In this document: positions 47,632 to 55,350 of the stretch, one piece after another | How positions within the stretch are numbered: position 1 is the first letter of the stretch | How the letters are laid out: each line of letters begins with the position of its first letter | From: Corticibacter populi | GTDB taxonomy: Bacteria; Pseudomonadota; Gammaproteobacteria; Burkholderiales; Burkholderiaceae_C | DNA length: 64,000 nt | Direction: 5' to 3' | Assembly (NCBI RefSeq): GCF_004217315.1 | Contig: NZ_SGWR01000003.1 | Location: 496,001 to 560,000, forward strand | The notes under the pieces: generated by a model | What the model was told of the DNA's origin: nothing | What the model saw: only the letters and a program-made list of their open reading frames with translations | Database searches by the model: none | Made by a program: the position numbers and the translations under genes

Positions 47632-49701
47632 CTAGGTCCACCCTGACTGGGCGGGGGGCTGCGATGGGACGGCGCCCGCAGGCGATTCCAGCAGGATGCT
47701 GACATGGACATGGCAGCCCTCGCCGGGGGCGGTATCGATGCAAAAGGCGCCGCCCAGTTCCCGCACGCGCTGGCGCATGCCGGCCAGGCCCATGCCACGA
47801 GCCCTTCCATCAGTGGTCATTTCTTCCGAGGTCATCCTGCCCAAGGCCATGCCCGCACCATTGTCGCGCACATGCAGGTGCAACTGGCCGGCCCGCTGAA
47901 TCAACTGGATCTGCACGATGGTGGCGGCGCTGTGCTTGATCACGTTGGTCAGGGCTTCCTGCAGCAGCCGCAGGATCGGCAGGGCCTTTTCCGGCTTCAG
48001 GCACAGCGCCTCGAGGCCCTCGGTGCGCCATTGTGAACGGATCTGCGCATTCTCCAGCGCGCGCTGCAGCCGCAGCCGGGTGTTGGCAAAGAGCGCCATG
48101 AAGTCATGCGGATCGGTGATGGTGCCGGTCTCCAGAATCAGCCGCAGTTCGTTGTGGATCTGCTGGAACACGTCCACCACCTCGTCGGCGCGCACGGCGG
48201 CGCTCGGCCAGGTGCTCCAGCGCGCGATCGAGCCGGTGAGGGTACTGCCCAGGCCGTCATGCAGGTCGCGGACCATGCGCCCGCGCTCTTCCAGGCGGGC
48301 CTTCTGGATCTCCAGCTCGCGGTTTTGCAGCATGGCCTGGCGCAGGCGCTCCTCGGCCTCCTCGATCTGGGTCTGCAACTCTTGCTTGTAATGGTGCTCG
48401 CGCTCGAGCGAGCGGGCCAGGCGCTGCGCCAGCACGAAACCGATGCCCATCAGCATCATGGTCGAGAGCAGCAGCGTGAAGTAGCGCGGCGAGTGCAGCC
48501 AGCCCTGCATGGCTGCCACCTCGTGGATGACGGTCAGCCCGACGAGCGAGACGGCGCTGGAGAGGATCACGCTCTCGGCCGTGCGGGTGTGCCAGGCGAA
48601 GGCCAGCCATTGCAGCATCGAGAGCACGCCCATGAGCATGCATACCAGCAACGCGGCAAGCTGGATGTCGTCCTGCCAGCGCGTGTCGCTGGGCACGCCC
48701 AGCAGCAGTGCCATCAGCGTGCCCAGGCCCGCCCACAGCGCCATGCTCTTGCGCAGGCTGCTGCGGCGCAGCAGTGTCCAGCTGAACATCCACAGCGCGC
48801 CGATGAAGACCAGCAGCGTGGCAATCAGAAAGCCGTGGAAGGCACGGGTGCTGCCGAACCAGCCAGGGGCTGCGGCAATGTAGTTGTAGCCATAGCCGAC
48901 CCAGCCCAGCAGCATCAGGCTGTACCAGCCGTAGTAGGCATGCAGCGGCCAGTTGAACCAGATGACCGTGAAGATCACGCACAGTGCCAGCAGCATGCCC
49001 AGGCTGAATTGCTGCAACTGCTGGCGCTTCCATTCGGTGAGCTGGTAGAGGCGCAGCACGTCCAGCGCATCGCCCACGTATACCGTACCGAGGCCGCCGC
49101 CGTGACGAGCATAGCCGGTCACGCCGATGAGCAGGTGGTGCTGCTGGCCGGCGGAAGTCTTGAGGCGCCAGTAGGACGGGTGGTTCCATGAACGCGAGAG
49201 CGGCTCCTCCAGCGAGAGGTCGCGCCCGATCAGCTGCGAATCCCAGAAGACCTCGTGCGCCATGGAGGCCGAGGAGACCATCAGCGCCAGGTCGTCGCCG
49301 CTCCAGTTCTGTGGAATCTGGATGCTGATGCCATACCAGGCGTGGCCCTCATGGCCGGGCCAGTCCCGCCGCCAGGCATGGGGCAGCTCGACGTTCTGCC
49401 AGTCCAGGGCCTGCCAGCTTGGCCCGACCTGTCCGGAAGGGGCGCCAAAGCCCTGGCTGTCCGGCAAGGCCAGCACACGTGTGACGGGCACCAGTTTCGA
49501 GTTCGCGATCAGGTGGCGCTCGTACCAGGTGCTGCCGAGCACGATGGCCGCGACCGTCAGCAGCAGCAAAATGGCCAGCGCCGTGACCTTGCCCGGGCGG
49601 GCCCGGCCACCGCGGCCGTTCGGGTAGGCATGGCCCAGCATCCAGAAGCTGTGCGGAAACCGCGATGGTGCGCTGAGCGGCTGATTCGGCATGGGCGGCA
49701 T
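47632..49701 (-). CDS. Membrane sensor histidine kinase (7TM-type input, HisKA_3)
   Basis: A 689-residue NarX/DegS-class kinase. Residues 38-58 form a membrane span; 60-220 an extracytoplasmic, jelly-roll-like domain (VELPHAWRRDWPGHEGHAWYG...HLLIGVTGYARHG); 230-425 seven or so membrane helices, the 7TMR-DISM arrangement; then a coiled coil and the HisKA_3 dimerisation helix with the phospho-acceptor H481 in VRDLHDGLGSTL. The ATPase domain has LQEALTNVIKHS, DNGAGM and GMGLAGMRQRV. It lies 15 bp after the response regulator gene and surely partners with it. The signal is unknown, possibly an envelope or carbohydrate cue. Confidence 0.93.
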   Translation of the reverse strand: MPPMPNQPLSAPSRFPHSFWMLGHAYPNGRGGRARPGKVTALAILLLLTVAAIVLGSTWYERHLIANSKLVPVTRVLALPDSQGFGAPSGQVGPSWQALDWQNVELPHAWRRDWPGHEGHAWYGISIQIPQNWSGDDLALMVSSASMAHEVFWDSQLIGRDLSLEEPLSRSWNHPSYWRLKTSAGQQHHLLIGVTGYARHGGGLGTVYVGDALDVLRLYQLTEWKRQQLQQFSLGMLLALCVIFTVIWFNWPLHAYYGWYSLMLLGWVGYGYNYIAAAPGWFGSTRAFHGFLIATLLVFIGALWMFSWTLLRRSSLRKSMALWAGLGTLMALLLGVPSDTRWQDDIQLAALLVCMLMGVLSMLQWLAFAWHTRTAESVILSSAVSLVGLTVIHEVAAMQGWLHSPRYFTLLLSTMMLMGIGFVLAQRLARSLEREHHYKQELQTQIEEAEERLRQAMLQNRELEIQKARLEERGRMVRDLHDGLGSTLTGSIARWSTWPSAAVRADEVVDVFQQIHNELRLILETGTITDPHDFMALFANTRLRLQRALENAQIRSQWRTEGLEALCLKPEKALPILRLLQEALTNVIKHSAATIVQIQLIQRAGQLHLHVRDNGAGMALGRMTSEEMTTDGRARGMGLAGMRQRVRELGGAFCIDTAPGEGCHVHVSILLESPAGAVPSQPPAQSGWT

Positions 49702-49716
49702 GGCGTGCCGGCTCTG

Positions 49717-50610
49717 TCAGACCAGGCCGTGGAGCATGGCGTGGCGAATCGCCTTGGTCTTGCTGTTGACCTGCAGCTTGCGGTAGATGTTCTTGATGTG
49801 GGTGTTGACCGTCAGCGTCGAGATGGCCAAGGCCTGGGCGATTTCCGCGTACGAGAGGCCTTCGGCAATGCGGCGCAGGATTTCCTGCTCGCGGCCGGAG
49901 AGCGTCTGTTCCGCGGCCTGCGGTTGCGGTGCGTGGGCCGGTTGCCTGATGGCCTGTCCCGCCGGCCACATGGGTGGCATGGAAGGAATGGGGGACATGG
50001 GCGACACCGGCCGTTCGGTCGCGCTGGCGACTGGCGCAGTGGCTTGCGCCGAGGCTGCCTGGGCCCCCATGTGCTTGATGATGCGCCGTGCCAGATTGGG
50101 CGAGATGGCCGCGCCACCATGCGCGACCTGCAGCACGGCCTCGGTGAAGTTGCCGATCCAGCCGTTCTTGACCAGATAGCCGGTGGCGCCAAGCTCGAAT
50201 GCATGGAAGGCGTGTTCCAGATCCTCCATGACGGAGATGATCACGACCTCGCTGATGGGACGCACCGACTTGCTCAGCGCCAGCAGCTCGAAGCCGGAGC
50301 CATCGCCAAGATTGAGATCGACCAGCAGGATGTCGTAGCTGGTCCTGCGGATCAGCGCTGCGCCCCGCGCGTGGCTGTCGGCCTCGCCCACCACCATGAC
50401 GTCAGGGTGCCGCTCGAACTCGGCGAGGATGGCCTGACGCACCCAGGCATCGTCATCGACGACGAGAATCCGTGTCGCGCGGGCTTGCGGGGATGCCTGC
50501 GATGCCGCGGGCGGATCGAATATCGATGAACGCGCGAATTGTGATGGAGTGAAACAGCTGTTGCCCTGATGCTTGTTACATAAGAGAGCCTCTTCGCGCC
50601 TGATCGTCAT
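49717..50610 (-). CDS. NarL/LuxR-family response regulator
   Basis: A 297-residue two-domain regulator. The receiver domain has the acidic pocket VVDDD (52-54), the phospho-acceptor aspartate D98 in ILLVDLNLGDGSG and K148; a Met/Pro-rich linker (about 190-225) leads to a LuxR-type helix-turn-helix (LSGREQEILRRIAEGLSYAE, IAQALAISTLTVNTHIKNIY). An extra 45 residues precede the receiver. GAGGAGAATTCC before the ATG at 50610 supports this start over an ATG 57 bp upstream. It is divergent from the repeat-protein/CsgG-like genes, as CsgD is from csgBAC in enterobacteria. Confidence 0.92.
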   Translation of the reverse strand: MTIRREEALLCNKHQGNSCFTPSQFARSSIFDPPAASQASPQARATRILVVDDDAWVRQAILAEFERHPDVMVVGEADSHARGAALIRRTSYDILLVDLNLGDGSGFELLALSKSVRPISEVVIISVMEDLEHAFHAFELGATGYLVKNGWIGNFTEAVLQVAHGGAAISPNLARRIIKHMGAQAASAQATAPVASATERPVSPMSPIPSMPPMWPAGQAIRQPAHAPQPQAAEQTLSGREQEILRRIAEGLSYAEIAQALAISTLTVNTHIKNIYRKLQVNSKTKAIRHAMLHGLV

Positions 50611-50885
50611 GGAATTCTCCTCTGTCACCTTGGCCTGTGTGTTTTTATGCAGATGGGGAAAAGCCATTCCCGAAAGATTTTTTCTTCAGGAGAATCAGCA
50701 CAAACCCTTGGCATGTCTGGCAGCGCATGCCTGATTAACTTATTATTGACACTCTTCCCTGCGAACGGCGATGGGCTGTGGCGCATGGCATTGCAGTGGA
50801 GGACGGCCATTTTGCGGAATGTTAAGGAGTTACAGGCGGGTAGTTCTTTAAATTTCAAAGAGTTACATTGATCACGAATGGCAAC

Positions 50886-50901
50886 TACCTGAATATAGGT
50901 A
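50886..50901. promoter_or_regulatory. NarL-type 7-2-7 palindrome, site 1
   Basis: TACCTGAATATAGGTA has the TACC-N8-GGTA layout. Its right half matches the NarL heptamer AKRRGTA exactly, and the left half matches TACYY. It is a good candidate target of the adjacent NarL-type regulator. Confidence 0.5.
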
Positions 50902-50985
50902 ATGGCTTTCTGTCATGGCACAGCGCGCAAGTGATTCATTCCATTGGATGAATGCATTCAAGGTATCTTTCCAGGCCAATTTGAA

Positions 50986-51001
50986 TACCCTTTTCAAGGT
51001 A
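50986..51001. promoter_or_regulatory. NarL-type 7-2-7 palindrome, site 2
   Basis: TACCCTTTTCAAGGTA, embedded in GAATACC-N8-GGTATTC, has the same TACC-N8-GGTA layout as site 1 and lies exactly 100 bp downstream of it. Its centre is about 22 bp upstream of the putative -35 element at 51015, a normal activator position. The half-site AAGGTAT also occurs alone at 50960-50966. Confidence 0.55.
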
Positions 51002-51014
51002 TTCCGAATGGGGA

Positions 51015-51043
51015 TTCACGCGATGGGGGTTCGTTCCGATACT
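51015..51043 (+). promoter_or_regulatory. Putative sigma-70 promoter of the repeat-protein gene
   Basis: TTCACG (51015-51020), a 17-bp spacer and GATACT (51038-51043) resemble a sigma-70 promoter with a weak -35 element, as expected for an activated gene. Transcription would start near 51050, giving a leader of about 100 bases. Confidence 0.4.
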
Positions 51044-51149
51044 GCCCAACAGACAAGGGCTGATCAGGCTTGCGGCCCTGTCCACCGGGCGGACGTGTCG
51101 CAACGACGCCATGCCGGTCCAACCCATCGAGAGCCATTTGGAGATCATC

Positions 51150-51614
51150 ATGAAAAAGGTATTGCTTGCTACTGCTGTCTTCGCAACGGGCCTGGCATTC
51201 GCCGGCGGGCCTTCGTCGTCCGGCAGTGAAATCGTGATCAACGGCCTGTCCATCCAGGCGACCTCGGCCATCTGGGCCACGGTGTCCAACAAGGCCGAGG
51301 ACGAAGGCTATGCGCTGCAGAACATCGCCTCCAATGCCGGCGAGGTGACGATCAATGGCGCCTCCGTGCAGATCGGCGCGTTGCGTGACACCACCGTGTC
51401 CAACTACGCGGATGACGAGGCCTATGCCGTGCAGAGCCTGGCCAGCAATCTGGGCGAGGTGACGGTCAATGGCGCTTCGCTGCAGATCGTTGCGGCCACC
51501 AACTCGGGCTTCTACAACAAGGCCACCGACAACAGCAAGGCCGTGCAGAACGTCTCCAGCAACAACGCCTGCGTGCAGTGCGTGCCCAGCGGCAAGGGCG
51601 GCGGCAAGTACTGA
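51150..51614 (+). CDS. Secreted three-repeat Asn/Gln-rich protein, candidate amyloid fibre subunit
   Basis: A 154-residue exported protein. The signal peptide MKKVLLATAVFATGLAFAGG cleaves near residue 18. The mature protein is three imperfect repeats of 38-39 residues (25-63, 64-101, 102-139), each with the pattern G-E-V-T-I/V-N-G-A-S-V/L-Q-I, later A-V/L-Q-N/S-L/I-A-S-N. Regular Asn, Gln, Ser and alternating small/hydrophobic residues resemble the beta-strand repeats of curli (CsgA) and HfaA-type subunits, though the sequence is not CsgA. A CVQC motif (141-144) and a Gly/Lys tail follow. GGAG precedes the ATG. A CsgG-like lipoprotein is encoded downstream. The role is inferred. Confidence 0.75.
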   Translation: MKKVLLATAVFATGLAFAGGPSSSGSEIVINGLSIQATSAIWATVSNKAEDEGYALQNIASNAGEVTINGASVQIGALRDTTVSNYADDEAYAVQSLASNLGEVTVNGASLQIVAATNSGFYNKATDNSKAVQNVSSNNACVQCVPSGKGGGKY

Positions 51615-51725
51615 CGCGGCTGCCTGAGAGCTTGCCGTCGATCGCCAGCGCGAGGCCTTTTGCCCGCGCTGGCGATCGGTTCATTCCATTCGGTCGGCCG
51701 GGCTGAACCGGCAACGGAGGCGCAT

Positions 51726-52154
51726 ATGTCGCATATGCCATATCTGTTCTTTCTGCGCATGGGCGGCGTGGGTGCCCTCTCCGCATGGCTGGCATCGCTT
51801 GCCTGGGCGCAGCCGATACCGGGCGAGGATCCACTGGTCATCCAGTCGCCACTGCAATATCAGCAGTTTCCGGGTTACGGCGGCGCCGCATCCGGCGGGC
51901 TCGACCCGTCCAGCGACCTGCCTGCGTGGATGCGCGCGCGCGTCTCGCGCTTCGAGGCGCAGGCGTATGGCATTCACTCCAGCGTCTATACCGACAACGA
52001 CGTGGTGACGACGGCAGCCACCCAGGGCTTGCGCAAGGTGTGCGTCCAGGAGGTCGCATCGAACACCACCGCGTCGGGCAGCATGGTCACGCCCGCCAAT
52101 GGCCGCGATCAGATCGTGGTGCTGCGTGGTGATCTGGTGAATGTCTGTCGATAG
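51726..52154 (+). CDS. Small secreted two-cysteine protein of the putative fibre operon
   Basis: A 142-residue protein I do not recognise. A signal peptide (LRMGGVGALSAWLASLAWA) ends near residue 28. The mature chain is Gln/Pro/Tyr-rich at first (SPLQYQQFPGYGG), and its C-terminal part has two cysteines (KVCVQEVASNTTASGS and IVVLRGDLVNVCR) likely to form one disulfide. GGAGG lies five bases before the ATG. By position it may be an accessory factor such as a chaperone or nucleator, comparable in role to CsgE, CsgF or HfaD, but no sequence similarity is claimed. Confidence 0.7.
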   Translation: MSHMPYLFFLRMGGVGALSAWLASLAWAQPIPGEDPLVIQSPLQYQQFPGYGGAASGGLDPSSDLPAWMRARVSRFEAQAYGIHSSVYTDNDVVTTAATQGLRKVCVQEVASNTTASGSMVTPANGRDQIVVLRGDLVNVCR

Positions 52155-52288
52155 CGGGATGACATGGCGGATGCCGGCCGGCGCGCATGCCGGCCTGTTC
52201 TGACGCGCTGGAGCAGGGCGCGCAGAGTGTCCGATCCATGCCAGGTCAATGGCAAGCGATGCCGGCAATGGCTCAAGAGGGGGGCAAG

Positions 52289-53992
52289 ATGCAGCACACC
52301 AACAGGCAATCCGCGCGGGCATCCATGCTGGGCGTGGTCATCACAGTGGCGAGCTGGCTGGGCGGCTGCGCCACGCCGCTGGACGCCCGCAAGGACCGGG
52401 AGTTCCAGTCCAACGCGCATGTGCACAACCGGCCCACGCACCGGCCAGTGCGCTCCTTCACCAGCTTCTCGGATTCGCTCACCTGCATGGACCACATGCT
52501 GCGCGCGGCCGACATGCCCACCACGCTGATCACCAGCAAGTACATCCCCGATTACTCGGGGCGCGTCTCGGTGGCCACCAAGGACATGATCATCACCGCG
52601 CTCTCGCAGATGTCGCGCGTGAGCAATGCCTTCCGCTACGTCGACTTCGAGGTGGAGCTGACGCGCCAGGACACGGTGCAGAACCTCACCACCATCCTGC
52701 TCAACAACAACCAGCTGCGCCTGCAGCGCCCGGCGCTGTATCTCTCGGGCGCGATCGCCTTCGTGGACCAGAACGTCATCAACAACCGCTGGGACATGGG
52801 CACTTCCGCCTCGCGGCTGGAGACGGGCTACAGCGCCAACCGCAACGCTACGCTGCTGGGCCTGGAGATGCACCTGGGCGATTTCCGCACCCGCACCTTC
52901 ATCCCCGGTCTCGATTCCTCCAACGAGATCATCATCGCCAATGGAGGCCAGGGCCTCGATCTGGCCGGCCGCATCAGCGACTATGGCGTGCATTTCAACG
53001 TCGGGCGCGATTACACGCAGGGCGTCGGCATTGCCACCCGCACGCTGGTGGAGCTGGCCATGATCGAGCTGCTGGGCAAATGGGCCCGGCTGCCCTACTG
53101 GCAGTGTCTGACGCTGGACCAGGCGCACCCGGACTTCCAGCGCCAGTTGCGCGACTGGTACAACGCCGGCAATGCCAGCCAGCACCGCAGCCTGGTGCAG
53201 CGTTCGCTGGCCAGCCAGGGCTATCTGCCCGCCGATGTGCCGCTGCGCGAGAGCGACAGCCAGGAACTGCGCCTGGCCGTGGCGCGCTTCCAAGCCGACC
53301 ATGGCATGGTGGTCACCGGCCGGGTCGACTTCACCACCTACGAGCGCGCCCTGCGCCAGTTCGTCGAGATCGACGAGGAAGGGCGCTTTACCCGCATCGG
53401 CTGGGAGACGGGCGGCAGGGCCACGGGCTGGCCGCCGCAGACGCAGCACCTGGCCATCGACCTGCAGGTGGAGAACCCCGTCATCGACCGCACCCGCTTC
53501 GAGAGCGGCACGCCGATCTACCTCTCGTCCTCGCTCAGCCGCAGCGCCCACCTCTACTGCTTCATGTCCAATGGCCACGGTCAGGTGATTCGCCTGCTGC
53601 CCAATGCCGCCATGCCGCATGCGCTGCTCTCGGCCAACCAGACCGTGCGCATTCCCGACTGGATGTCGCCCAACCCCGGCTTCCTGCTCGATGCCGGCCA
53701 GCCCGGCACCGAAACCGTGGGTTGTTTTGCCAGCACGCGCGACATGGCCGGGCTGCTGCCGGGGCTGACCGAGCCGCCCGCGCTGTCCTTGCTGGGCGGT
53801 GTGCAGGGCATCGATGGTGTGCAGCAGGCCTTTACGCAGGCACTGGGCGAGGGTGAGTTCGCCAGCCAGCGGGTGCAGTGGCAGGTGCTGCCAGCAGGCC
53901 CTGCCATGCAGGCTGCGCCGGCACCTGCTGCACCCTCCGTGGCACCACCCGCGGCGCCATCGTCACCGCCCGCAAGTGGCGGCGCGCGCTGA
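52289..53992 (+). CDS. CsgG/HfaB-like outer-membrane lipoprotein with peptidoglycan-binding and DUF4384-like domains
   Basis: A 567-residue lipoprotein. The lipobox LGGC places the acylated cysteine at residue 27. Residues about 55-275 resemble CsgG/HfaB: VATKDMIITALSQMSRVSNAFRYVDFE, ALYLSGAIAFVDQNVINNRW, LGLEMHLGDFRTRTFIPGLD, and TRTLVELAMIELLGKW. Residues 297-360 form a peptidoglycan-binding-type helix bundle (LVQRSLASQGYLPADVPL, AVARFQADHGMVVTGRVDFTTYERAL). Residues about 405-495 look like DUF4384 (GTPIYLSSSLSRSAHLYCFMSNGHGQVIRLLPN, in parts). A Pro/Ala tail ends the chain. GAGGGGGG before the ATG supports the start. A secretion pore for the repeat protein is the likely role. Confidence 0.75.
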   Translation: MQHTNRQSARASMLGVVITVASWLGGCATPLDARKDREFQSNAHVHNRPTHRPVRSFTSFSDSLTCMDHMLRAADMPTTLITSKYIPDYSGRVSVATKDMIITALSQMSRVSNAFRYVDFEVELTRQDTVQNLTTILLNNNQLRLQRPALYLSGAIAFVDQNVINNRWDMGTSASRLETGYSANRNATLLGLEMHLGDFRTRTFIPGLDSSNEIIIANGGQGLDLAGRISDYGVHFNVGRDYTQGVGIATRTLVELAMIELLGKWARLPYWQCLTLDQAHPDFQRQLRDWYNAGNASQHRSLVQRSLASQGYLPADVPLRESDSQELRLAVARFQADHGMVVTGRVDFTTYERALRQFVEIDEEGRFTRIGWETGGRATGWPPQTQHLAIDLQVENPVIDRTRFESGTPIYLSSSLSRSAHLYCFMSNGHGQVIRLLPNAAMPHALLSANQTVRIPDWMSPNPGFLLDAGQPGTETVGCFASTRDMAGLLPGLTEPPALSLLGGVQGIDGVQQAFTQALGEGEFASQRVQWQVLPAGPAMQAAPAPAAPSVAPPAAPSSPPASGGAR

Positions 53993-54075
53993 CAGGCGTC
54001 CGACCTGCCGCTTGTAAAGGCTGGAGCGCCGGCCGGGGCCGGCCCAACGATCACGGGAACGGGAAGGAGTCTGCT

Positions 54076-55350
54076 GTGCTGCAAATGACTGTGCGAGTAT
54101 CGGGCGGCGGCCTGGAGCGGGGACGCGTGGTGTCGCTCGTCCTGCTGGTGGCGCTGTTGGCGGGGCTGCTGGGTGCCAGCACTCCGGCCCGGGCCCAGCC
54201 CCGCGCGGTCTGGCATGACGAGGACATTGCCGCCCCGATGAACGACGAGAACCTGCTGATTCCGGCGCCGCAGCCGCTGTCACCTGCGCTGCCCGGGGCC
54301 GGCTTTTCCGGCGACGGCGCGGGCAGTCTGTTCGATGCCGACGAAGGCCCGCAGGCTCTTCCCAACCCCCAGGCCGAGCAGGAGTTGCGGCACCGCCTGC
54401 GCATCTTGCAGGCGCAGGCACGGCAGCTCGAAGCGGCTTCCAAGGCGCAGGGCCGGGCCACCGTCCAGCAGGCCGCGCAGGCGGCGCTGGAGCTGGGGCT
54501 GATCCACTTGCATGGCAGCGGCGTGCCGGTTGATGCCGGGGTGGCGCAGCAATGGTTCGAGCAGGCGCTGGCCTTGCAGCCGCAGGGGCGCGCCGTGGGG
54601 GCTATGGCCTGGTGCTATCTGCAGGGCTGCCAATTGCCGCCCGATGCGGATGCCGCCAGGGAGATGATCACCCGTCTGCGTGGCATTCAGCCCGGCCGTG
54701 CCGCCTTTCTTGAATGGGCGTTGGCGTTGCAGCAGTCCCCGCTGATCATGATGCCGGCGCCGCGCCACTCGGGTGGCGGGCAGCGTCTGCAAGTGCCCCA
54801 GCCGGCGCTGCTGCGGGAGGCCGCCCGGGCGGGCGACGTGCATGCGCATGTCGAGCTGGGCATCGACGCCTTCAACCAGGGGCAGGAAACGCAGGCGCGG
54901 GCCCATTTTCGTGCCGCAGCGCACGGATCGCCGGCTGCCCGGGCCAACCTGACCATGCTCGATGCCGTGCGGCAACGCCAGCAGCAAGGGGGGGCTGCCG
55001 CACAGGCGGGCGGGCGCGAGCTCGAAGCCGCCCACCGCGCACACCGCGGCACGCAGGGCCCGGCCAATTACTCCGAGGCGCTGCGCCTGTACCGCCTGGC
55101 GGCGCAGCAGGGCAATGCGGCGGCGCGCAACATGCTGCAGCTGATCCTCTCGCGCCCGGCCGCCGATGGCGGCATCAACGTCGTCTGGATGCGGGAGCTG
55201 GCCTTGATGGACTTCAGTGGCGAGCTGCCGCAGCTGGCGGCGCCGGTCTCGCAGCCGCAATTGCAGCGCGACCCGACGCCGCTGTTCGACTGGCTGCCCG
55301 CCTACTGGCAGGAGCGCGCCACGCTGCGCGGCCTGTTGCCGGGCGATTGA
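54076..55350 (+). CDS. Secreted Sel1/TPR-repeat protein
   Basis: A 424-residue protein with a signal peptide (VVSLVLLVALLAGLLGASTPARAQ, given in parts). It has Sel1-like repeats (ALELGLIHLHGSGVPVDAGVAQQWFEQAL; AHVELGIDAFNQGQETQARAHFRAA; NYSEALRLYRLAAQQGNAAARNMLQL, in parts) and a coiled segment near 120-150. Sel1 proteins are adaptors in envelope complexes. GGAG lies seven bases before the GTG at 54076, which is preferred; an ATG three codons on is the alternative. It is the last gene of the putative fibre operon, 83 bp after the CsgG-like gene. Confidence 0.8.
   Translation: MLQMTVRVSGGGLERGRVVSLVLLVALLAGLLGASTPARAQPRAVWHDEDIAAPMNDENLLIPAPQPLSPALPGAGFSGDGAGSLFDADEGPQALPNPQAEQELRHRLRILQAQARQLEAASKAQGRATVQQAAQAALELGLIHLHGSGVPVDAGVAQQWFEQALALQPQGRAVGAMAWCYLQGCQLPPDADAAREMITRLRGIQPGRAAFLEWALALQQSPLIMMPAPRHSGGGQRLQVPQPALLREAARAGDVHAHVELGIDAFNQGQETQARAHFRAAAHGSPAARANLTMLDAVRQRQQQGGAAAQAGGRELEAAHRAHRGTQGPANYSEALRLYRLAAQQGNAAARNMLQLILSRPAADGGINVVWMRELALMDFSGELPQLAAPVSQPQLQRDPTPLFDWLPAYWQERATLRGLLPGD

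Follow-up and report, generated by a model that had tools for sequence, protein, structure and literature searches.

Within a 64,000-nucleotide stretch of the Corticibacter populi genome (hereafter the window; contig NZ_SGWR01000003.1, positions 496,001 to 560,000, in a genome of 4.2 Mb), we analysed six genes that a first-pass annotation had proposed as a curli-like surface fibre export system with its own two-component control. The positions of the six open reading frames (ORFs) are as it had placed them. Four lie on the forward strand and encode, in order, a repeat protein (REP, 51150–51614), a secreted partner protein (SMALL, 51726–52154), a lipoprotein that is the proposed outer-membrane export channel (LIPO, 52289–53992) and a Sel1-repeat protein (SEL1, 54085–55350). 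They diverge from a NarL/LuxR-type response regulator (RR, 49717–50667) and a sensor histidine kinase (HK, 47632–49701), both on the reverse strand. The gene set, which many environmental bacteria share, probably exports a repetitive protein across the outer membrane, building a surface fibre or anchor.

The exporter candidate carries a lipobox (LGGC) whose cysteine, C27, is invariant across LIPO and ten relatives; the 11 sequences also have in common a conserved stretch of some 250 residues. Residues 45–293 (52421–53167; hhalign) form a CsgG/HfaB-like domain, which is followed by PG_binding_1 at residues 301–352 (53189–53344; Pfam values of 2.2e-7 and 2.4e-7) and DUF4384 at residues 404–484 (53498–53740; Pfam values of 3.5e-14 and 3.8e-14). 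An alignment of 14 LIPO N-terminal domains (A5) matched HfaB (8 rows) with an hhalign probability of 98.3 (expectation value (E) of 1.3e-14, 201 columns) and the CsgG family (16 rows) with a probability of 94.4 (E of 8.9e-8, 186 columns); CsgG and HfaB matched each other at 99.7. Against the LIPO domain, two unrelated secreted families used as controls gave 0.2 and 0.1. With column shuffles (100 per target), the highest values were 1.5 for CsgG and 3.7 for HfaB; reversed profiles reached 0.2, and none of seven decoys exceeded 2.0. The LIPO N-terminal domain is, on this profile evidence, a remote CsgG/HfaB homologue, and the earlier description of a CsgG/HfaB-like lipoprotein with two extra domains is borne out by the alignments, the shuffle controls and the two Pfam matches.

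LIPO is a separate branch from CsgG and HfaB. In a tree of 69 domains, the 45 LIPO rows stand apart from the 8 HfaB and 16 CsgG-family rows on a branch with support of 100/99; the tree is unrooted, its report warns of long branches meeting, and its CsgG group is weakly held (88/22). The HfaB equivalog model NF037935 matched 10 of the 11 members at E ≤ 1 (best, 2.6e-6) without reaching its cut-off of 300 bits, with the window LIPO scoring 19.5 bits. Five relatives from named records (three from Delftia, one from Comamonas and one from a record labelled Pantoea sp. 18069) are 54–61% identical to LIPO, and from these we take the family to be Comamonadaceae; relatives in named records are annotated as DUF4384, with no function given. 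The LIPO of the record titled Pantoea sp. 18069 (L009) is 61% identical to that of the window, and this genome is possibly misidentified or mixed. A full-length LIPO profile matched 46 of 369 genomes, with seven of these (including the window genome, G000) matching over the N-terminal domain by our reading of the positions. Because the full-length profile found mostly PG_binding and DUF4384 proteins, later searches used the N-terminal domain alone. In the window genome, the CsgG model PF03783 matches only on a different contig (8.5e-7; C4:1440–1940, L001), outside the window.

The six genes are largely conserved together. Among 37 loci scanned, 14 are of the window type (the window, L009–L013, L086, L088, L089, L092, L098, L099, L104 and L105); the same 14 form one branch of the tree, with L102 as its sister, and the three Delftia loci are nearly identical. 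REP, SMALL, LIPO and SEL1 are each present in 14 of 14 loci, the divergent RR in 13 and HK in 12. Six of these loci trained at least one model and eight trained none; in the latter, REP, SMALL, LIPO and SEL1 each occur in all eight, the divergent RR in seven and HK next to RR in six, so that the co-conservation expected of the six genes is largely observed and goes beyond chance. L102 has the four forward-strand genes without the divergent pair. In the wider family, LIPO occurs in 61 of 299 genomes, partial matches included.

The association is closest between LIPO and SMALL. SMALL has no Pfam family at E ≤ 1, yet both ends of the mature protein are strongly conserved (PG.DP and QIVVLRGDLVN.C), and C106 and C141 are invariant in 13 aligned sequences, the C-terminal motif being QIVVLRGDLVNVCR. 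SMALL was found in 35 of the 299 family genomes, spanning 23 genera, and all 35 also carry LIPO (hypergeometric 2e-29, with relatedness ignored). All 36 SMALL matches lie on the same strand as the LIPO-domain match and 114–478 bases upstream of it, and SMALL is present at every one of the 34 LIPO places with the best scores, which come from 34 genomes. In the other 26 LIPO-bearing genomes of the 299, SMALL gave no match at E ≤ 0.001; the LIPO sequences there are more distant types or fragments. SMALL of the window type and SMALL of distant loci are related (probability, 91.9), and a combined SMALL model matches 29 of 46 loci, 19 of which trained it. Of the 27 loci outside training, 10 have a match close to LIPO, among them L011, which is nearly identical to a training locus. 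SMALL lies on the opposite strand in L014 and some 570 bases away in L194. By eye, small secreted ORFs stand upstream of LIPO in seven loci that the model misses (L018, L053, L054, L087, L091, L095 and L096).

REP has a signal peptide (by eye), three Asn/Ser/Ala-rich repeats of 38 residues (residues 27–64, 65–102 and 103–139; 51228–51566) and a C-terminal CxxC motif, and is the proposed exported subunit. Its self-similarity score at a lag of 38 is 159, the highest score among 1,000 residue shuffles being 38 (0 of 1,000 reach 159), and the repeats follow the pattern EV.(I/V)NG.S.Q......V.N.A......A.Q...SN.G. A Pfam scan of REP gave no match over the cut-off, and no curlin model matched. An AlphaFold model from six sequences (predicted local distance difference test (pLDDT) score of 72; predicted template modelling score of 0.59) is beta-rich, with three stretches of strand (about 8, 6 and 15 residues) that recur every 38 residues. 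Among 116 Foldseek matches to this model at E ≤ 10, the top two are the functional amyloids FapC (6.6e-4) and CsgA (0.018), and the rows after these are ice-binding and other proteins. A shuffle test flagged repeat proteins no more than 4.5 kb from LIPO in 28 of 46 loci; at L051, L191 and L197, which are among the 28, the flagged frames appear unrelated or antisense, and five loci that the test left unflagged (L010, L011, L013, L086 and L105) are positive by the REP model. The window REP matches the repeat proteins of L015–L017 over only 20 columns at its start (20.7), so that these proteins are alike in kind and not demonstrated homologues. Searches of PDB sequences with the REP and SMALL profiles gave nothing meaningful.

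Taken together, these genes lean, by a modest degree, towards a separate branch of CsgG-type (type VIII-like) export that delivers a beta-solenoid surface polymer. What was computed directly is the presence of the genes, the homology of the exporter, the repeat, the conservation of the genes together and the absence of matches to CsgE, CsgF and curlin models (detailed below); beyond homology, we infer a channel, a substrate, a fibre, a mode of control and roles for SMALL, DUF4384 and SEL1. LIPO would be lipidated, would probably oligomerise as CsgG does and would form an outer-membrane channel through two regions that align with what we take to be the barrel hairpins of CsgG, with its PG-binding domain gripping peptidoglycan. 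REP would reach the periplasm by Sec and then pass unfolded through the LIPO channel. Once outside, it would stack into a beta-solenoid, with layers of about 19 residues, and make a surface fibre or coat. SMALL may be a dedicated partner of the channel, with its N-terminal part docking on LIPO and its disulfide-closed C terminus capping or seeding REP, a job comparable with that of CsgF and CsgB without detectable homology. On the periplasmic side, the PG_binding_1–DUF4384 extension could replace the absent CsgE. SEL1 would be an accessory scaffold, and the two-component pair would decide when the operon is on. The first-pass annotation had suggested that the set may define a separate fibre-secretion type; the tree supports a separate exporter branch, whereas fibre formation, export and an amyloid nature are proposals.

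Several results weigh against this reading. On the side of the exporter, the window clade alone (six rows) matches HfaB at 93.3 and CsgG at only 1.3, and the curated CsgG model PF03783 matches 1 of 11 LIPO members, at an E of 0.043, which does not pass the cut-off. When LIPO and LIPO-domain profiles were searched against PDB sequences, no CsgG chain came up, and nothing meaningful other than peptidoglycan-binding domains; the AlphaFold model of LIPO from six sequences (pLDDT of 38) was too poor to count for either side. On the side of the substrate, the other four REP models have mean pLDDT values of 39–54, and the matches of REP to FapC and CsgA have template modelling (TM) scores of 0.12–0.15 and root mean square deviations of 14–17 (TM of 0.14 and deviation of 14 for FapC, the top Foldseek match), values that demonstrate no superposition on either fold. 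No homology was detected by hhalign between REP and CsgA, CsgF, HfaA or HfaD (REP–HfaD, 0.4; REP–HfaA, 3.1), or between SMALL and CsgA, CsgF, CsgE, HfaA or HfaD (SMALL–HfaA, 1.2; SMALL–HfaD, 15.2); the matches of REP and SMALL to HfaA and HfaD span 11–37 columns, and several fall in the signal-peptide region, as does that of REP to CsgF (probability of 19.6 over 21 columns). Of the amyloid-type repeat subunit proposed earlier, the significance of the repeats and the beta-rich model stand; sequence homology to CsgA, HfaA or HfaD was not detected. No repeat protein was flagged in 18 of 46 loci, and 17 of 46 lack SMALL by the model. Finally, the segment of LIPO that follows a D-x-T-G motif, which we take to correspond to the eyelet-bearing segment of CsgG, is largely a gap in the hhalign alignment with CsgG (DYSGRVSVATKDM compared with, for example, DQTGQYKPQANVSSFSTAVTQGATSM).

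The nearest alternative is an anchor like that of the Caulobacter holdfast (HfaABD), in which LIPO would export REP and SMALL and these would attach an exopolysaccharide adhesin to the cell envelope, with no free fibre. This is unlikely but has to be taken seriously, as LIPO is nearer to HfaB than to CsgG, SMALL lies directly upstream of LIPO where HfaA-like ORFs lie directly upstream of hfaB in two loci (L165 and L166), and the built-in peptidoglycan-binding domain would fit an anchor role. In Caulobacter, HfaA and HfaD depend on HfaB for reaching the outer membrane (PMC6707917). The resemblance is limited by the substrates, REP and SMALL having no detectable homology to HfaD and HfaA (the repeats of REP had looked like those of HfaD by eye, an impression that the hhalign value given above did not bear out), and by the exporter, which falls in a separate clade and, at 567 amino acids with PG_binding_1 and DUF4384, is longer than the HfaB ORFs used (284–404 amino acids). 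A six-frame search of the window genome with the HfaB model gave no match at E ≤ 0.001, although the NCBIfam library scan of LIPO returned HfaB weakly, at 5.4e-4. Less probable again is a periplasmic or membrane scaffold, in which REP and SMALL would be linked to peptidoglycan and LIPO would be a structural lipoprotein with no channel. The two C-terminal domains of LIPO, the Sel1-repeat neighbour, the OmpA-type proteins near several distant modules and the gap at the CsgG constriction loop would all suit such a scaffold, but the alignment of LIPO with CsgG covers nearly the whole domain, and REP resembles an exported beta-repeat protein.

Ordinary curli diverged past recognition is very improbable, and we rejected it. 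Like the curli genes of Escherichia coli (CsgABEFG and CsgD), the gene set has a CsgG-like exporter domain, a repeat subunit and a LuxR-type regulator next to a divergent operon. The curli exporter CsgG is a barrel of nine lipoprotein subunits, which CsgE caps from the periplasm; CsgF lines the lumen on the outer side and forms the bridge to CsgB (PMC7304575). By contrast, models of CsgE (PF10627), CsgF (PF10614) and the curlin repeat (PF07012) matched none of 22 module-bearing genomes, which were our own choice, and all three were positive in an E. coli control; the earlier failure to recognise csgE, csgF and csgB thus holds genome-wide for these models. LIPO also falls outside both CsgG and HfaB in the tree and has extra C-terminal domains and a short constriction segment, the system has its own partner in SMALL, and its regulator has a receiver domain and a histidine kinase alongside. 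CsgG-dependent systems without CsgE or CsgF are already described, in the form of alphaproteobacterial curli with CsgH, with no csgE and often no csgF (PMC3521004), and the window system is therefore not a wholly new kind; those systems have CsgA and CsgB with curlin repeats, for which no match was found here.

The constriction is a place where the favoured exporter may differ from CsgG. The segment is 15 residues long in LIPO and 26–27 in CsgG. A loop-length pattern matched 17 of 45 LIPO rows (13 residues in 12 rows, 19–22 in the other 5) and 7 of 16 CsgG rows; the rows with 19–22 residues indicate that the shortening is not common to every branch. The eyelet residues of CsgG are Tyr51, Asn55 and Phe56 (PMC6957492), or Tyr66, Asn70 and Phe71 in other numbering (PMC7304575), and the gap at these constriction residues suggests that the LIPO channel may differ. 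More tentatively, Proteobacteria may have in this system a third class of CsgG-type export, separate from the other two, for non-curlin beta-solenoid polymers, with SMALL as an obligatory adaptor and a channel fastened to peptidoglycan. The lack of the eyelet loop in the branch of the window might then allow thicker or partly folded substrates to pass, and neither CsgE nor CsgF would be needed because the PG_binding_1–DUF4384 extension would gate the periplasmic side.

To our knowledge, many CsgG relatives have no assigned job. The family is larger than curli secretion, a point that Dueholm et al. 2012 made on the basis of non-curli hits (PMC3521004), and its members have also been catalogued as sensing nanopores (PMC13397529). 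The sections covered of the open-licence literature on CsgG, HfaB, curli-like systems and DUF4384 (including PMC8250860 and PMC4737851) do not describe this gene set. For one branch of the family, the locus supplies a candidate substrate, a partner that was never found without LIPO and a wall-binding exporter. If our reading is right, a fifth of the sampled family genomes (the 61 of 299 given above), together with bacteria as distant as Azospirillum, possess a surface polymer or anchor that has yet to be described and that present annotation (DUF4384) conceals. Because its constriction loop is missing, the window LIPO is also a natural variant for probing the role of the loop in CsgG.

The divergent regulators are tied less closely to the module. 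RR has a receiver domain (3.8e-16), a GerE domain (2.8e-19) and the motif LVDLN at residue 115, and HK has HATPase_c (4.2e-14) and HisKA_3 (8.1e-6) domains. By hydropathy, HK has a hydrophobic segment at its N terminus and a group of six at residues 231–425, seven in all; no Pfam model of the seven-transmembrane (7TM) type, to which it had been assigned earlier, matched at E ≤ 1. The kinases of L009, L010 and L012 have two segments each. A recognised kinase is absent from 2 of the 14 window-type loci, and some more distant loci have a sigma-70-type gene nearby where the window has a two-component pair; the link between the module and a 7TM-type kinase is loose. Such genes lie near distant modules by our own reading (L015:278–991, L017:12195–12782, L094 and L103), and an annotated sigma-70-type gene and zf-HC2 gene stand by the module in Azospirillum L191:3142–3675. 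The divergent control region (50668–51149) has promoter-like sites near the shuffle mean, and the dyads of 11 intergenic regions do not stand out from shuffles, with no convincing shared regulator site. CACTGCA occurs in 7 of the 11 loci, a slight excess over the maximum of 6 in mononucleotide shuffles; being barely above that maximum, it is not claimed as a regulator site.

At the other end of the cluster, SEL1 (Pfam Sel1, 8.1e-11) has a signal-peptide-like start, which is likely at 54076 (GTG) or 54085 (ATG), after the ribosome-binding site GGAAGGAG, and not at 53878.

Members of the exporter family are also found, beside other regulators, in further parts of its class and in Alphaproteobacteria. 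Among 299 genomes drawn from across the phylum, A5 has matches in 23, four of which (G824, G911, G1063 and G1071) are HfaB genomes. Outside the family of the window, several loci again combine the exporter with a repeat protein and SMALL, beside OmpA-type, DUF2807 and sigma-70-type genes. On two Azospirillum plasmids, LIPO is labelled a DUF4384 domain-containing protein (31–32% identity over 85–92% of LIPO), the genes just upstream are labelled DUF4399 or hypothetical, and the SMALL model gave no match to either plasmid. Within the family of the window, a second subtype (L087, L091, L095 and L096) has an exporter of 392–445 amino acids, a small secreted ORF and, upstream of the exporter, a repeat protein of 986–1,379 amino acids with a period of 28–29. 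By score, both subtypes occur in genomes G602, G534, G532, G586, G659 and G665. DUF2807 (head GIN, putative adhesin) lies near the exporter at L017:10113–10811 (Pfam, 2.1e-38) and, by a model of our own, at L018:7563–8285, L053:9562–10344 and L054:10366–11139. Near three distant modules are proteins that are, by eye, presumably caspase-like (L014:543–2060, L051:6071–7801 and L017:13383–14351).

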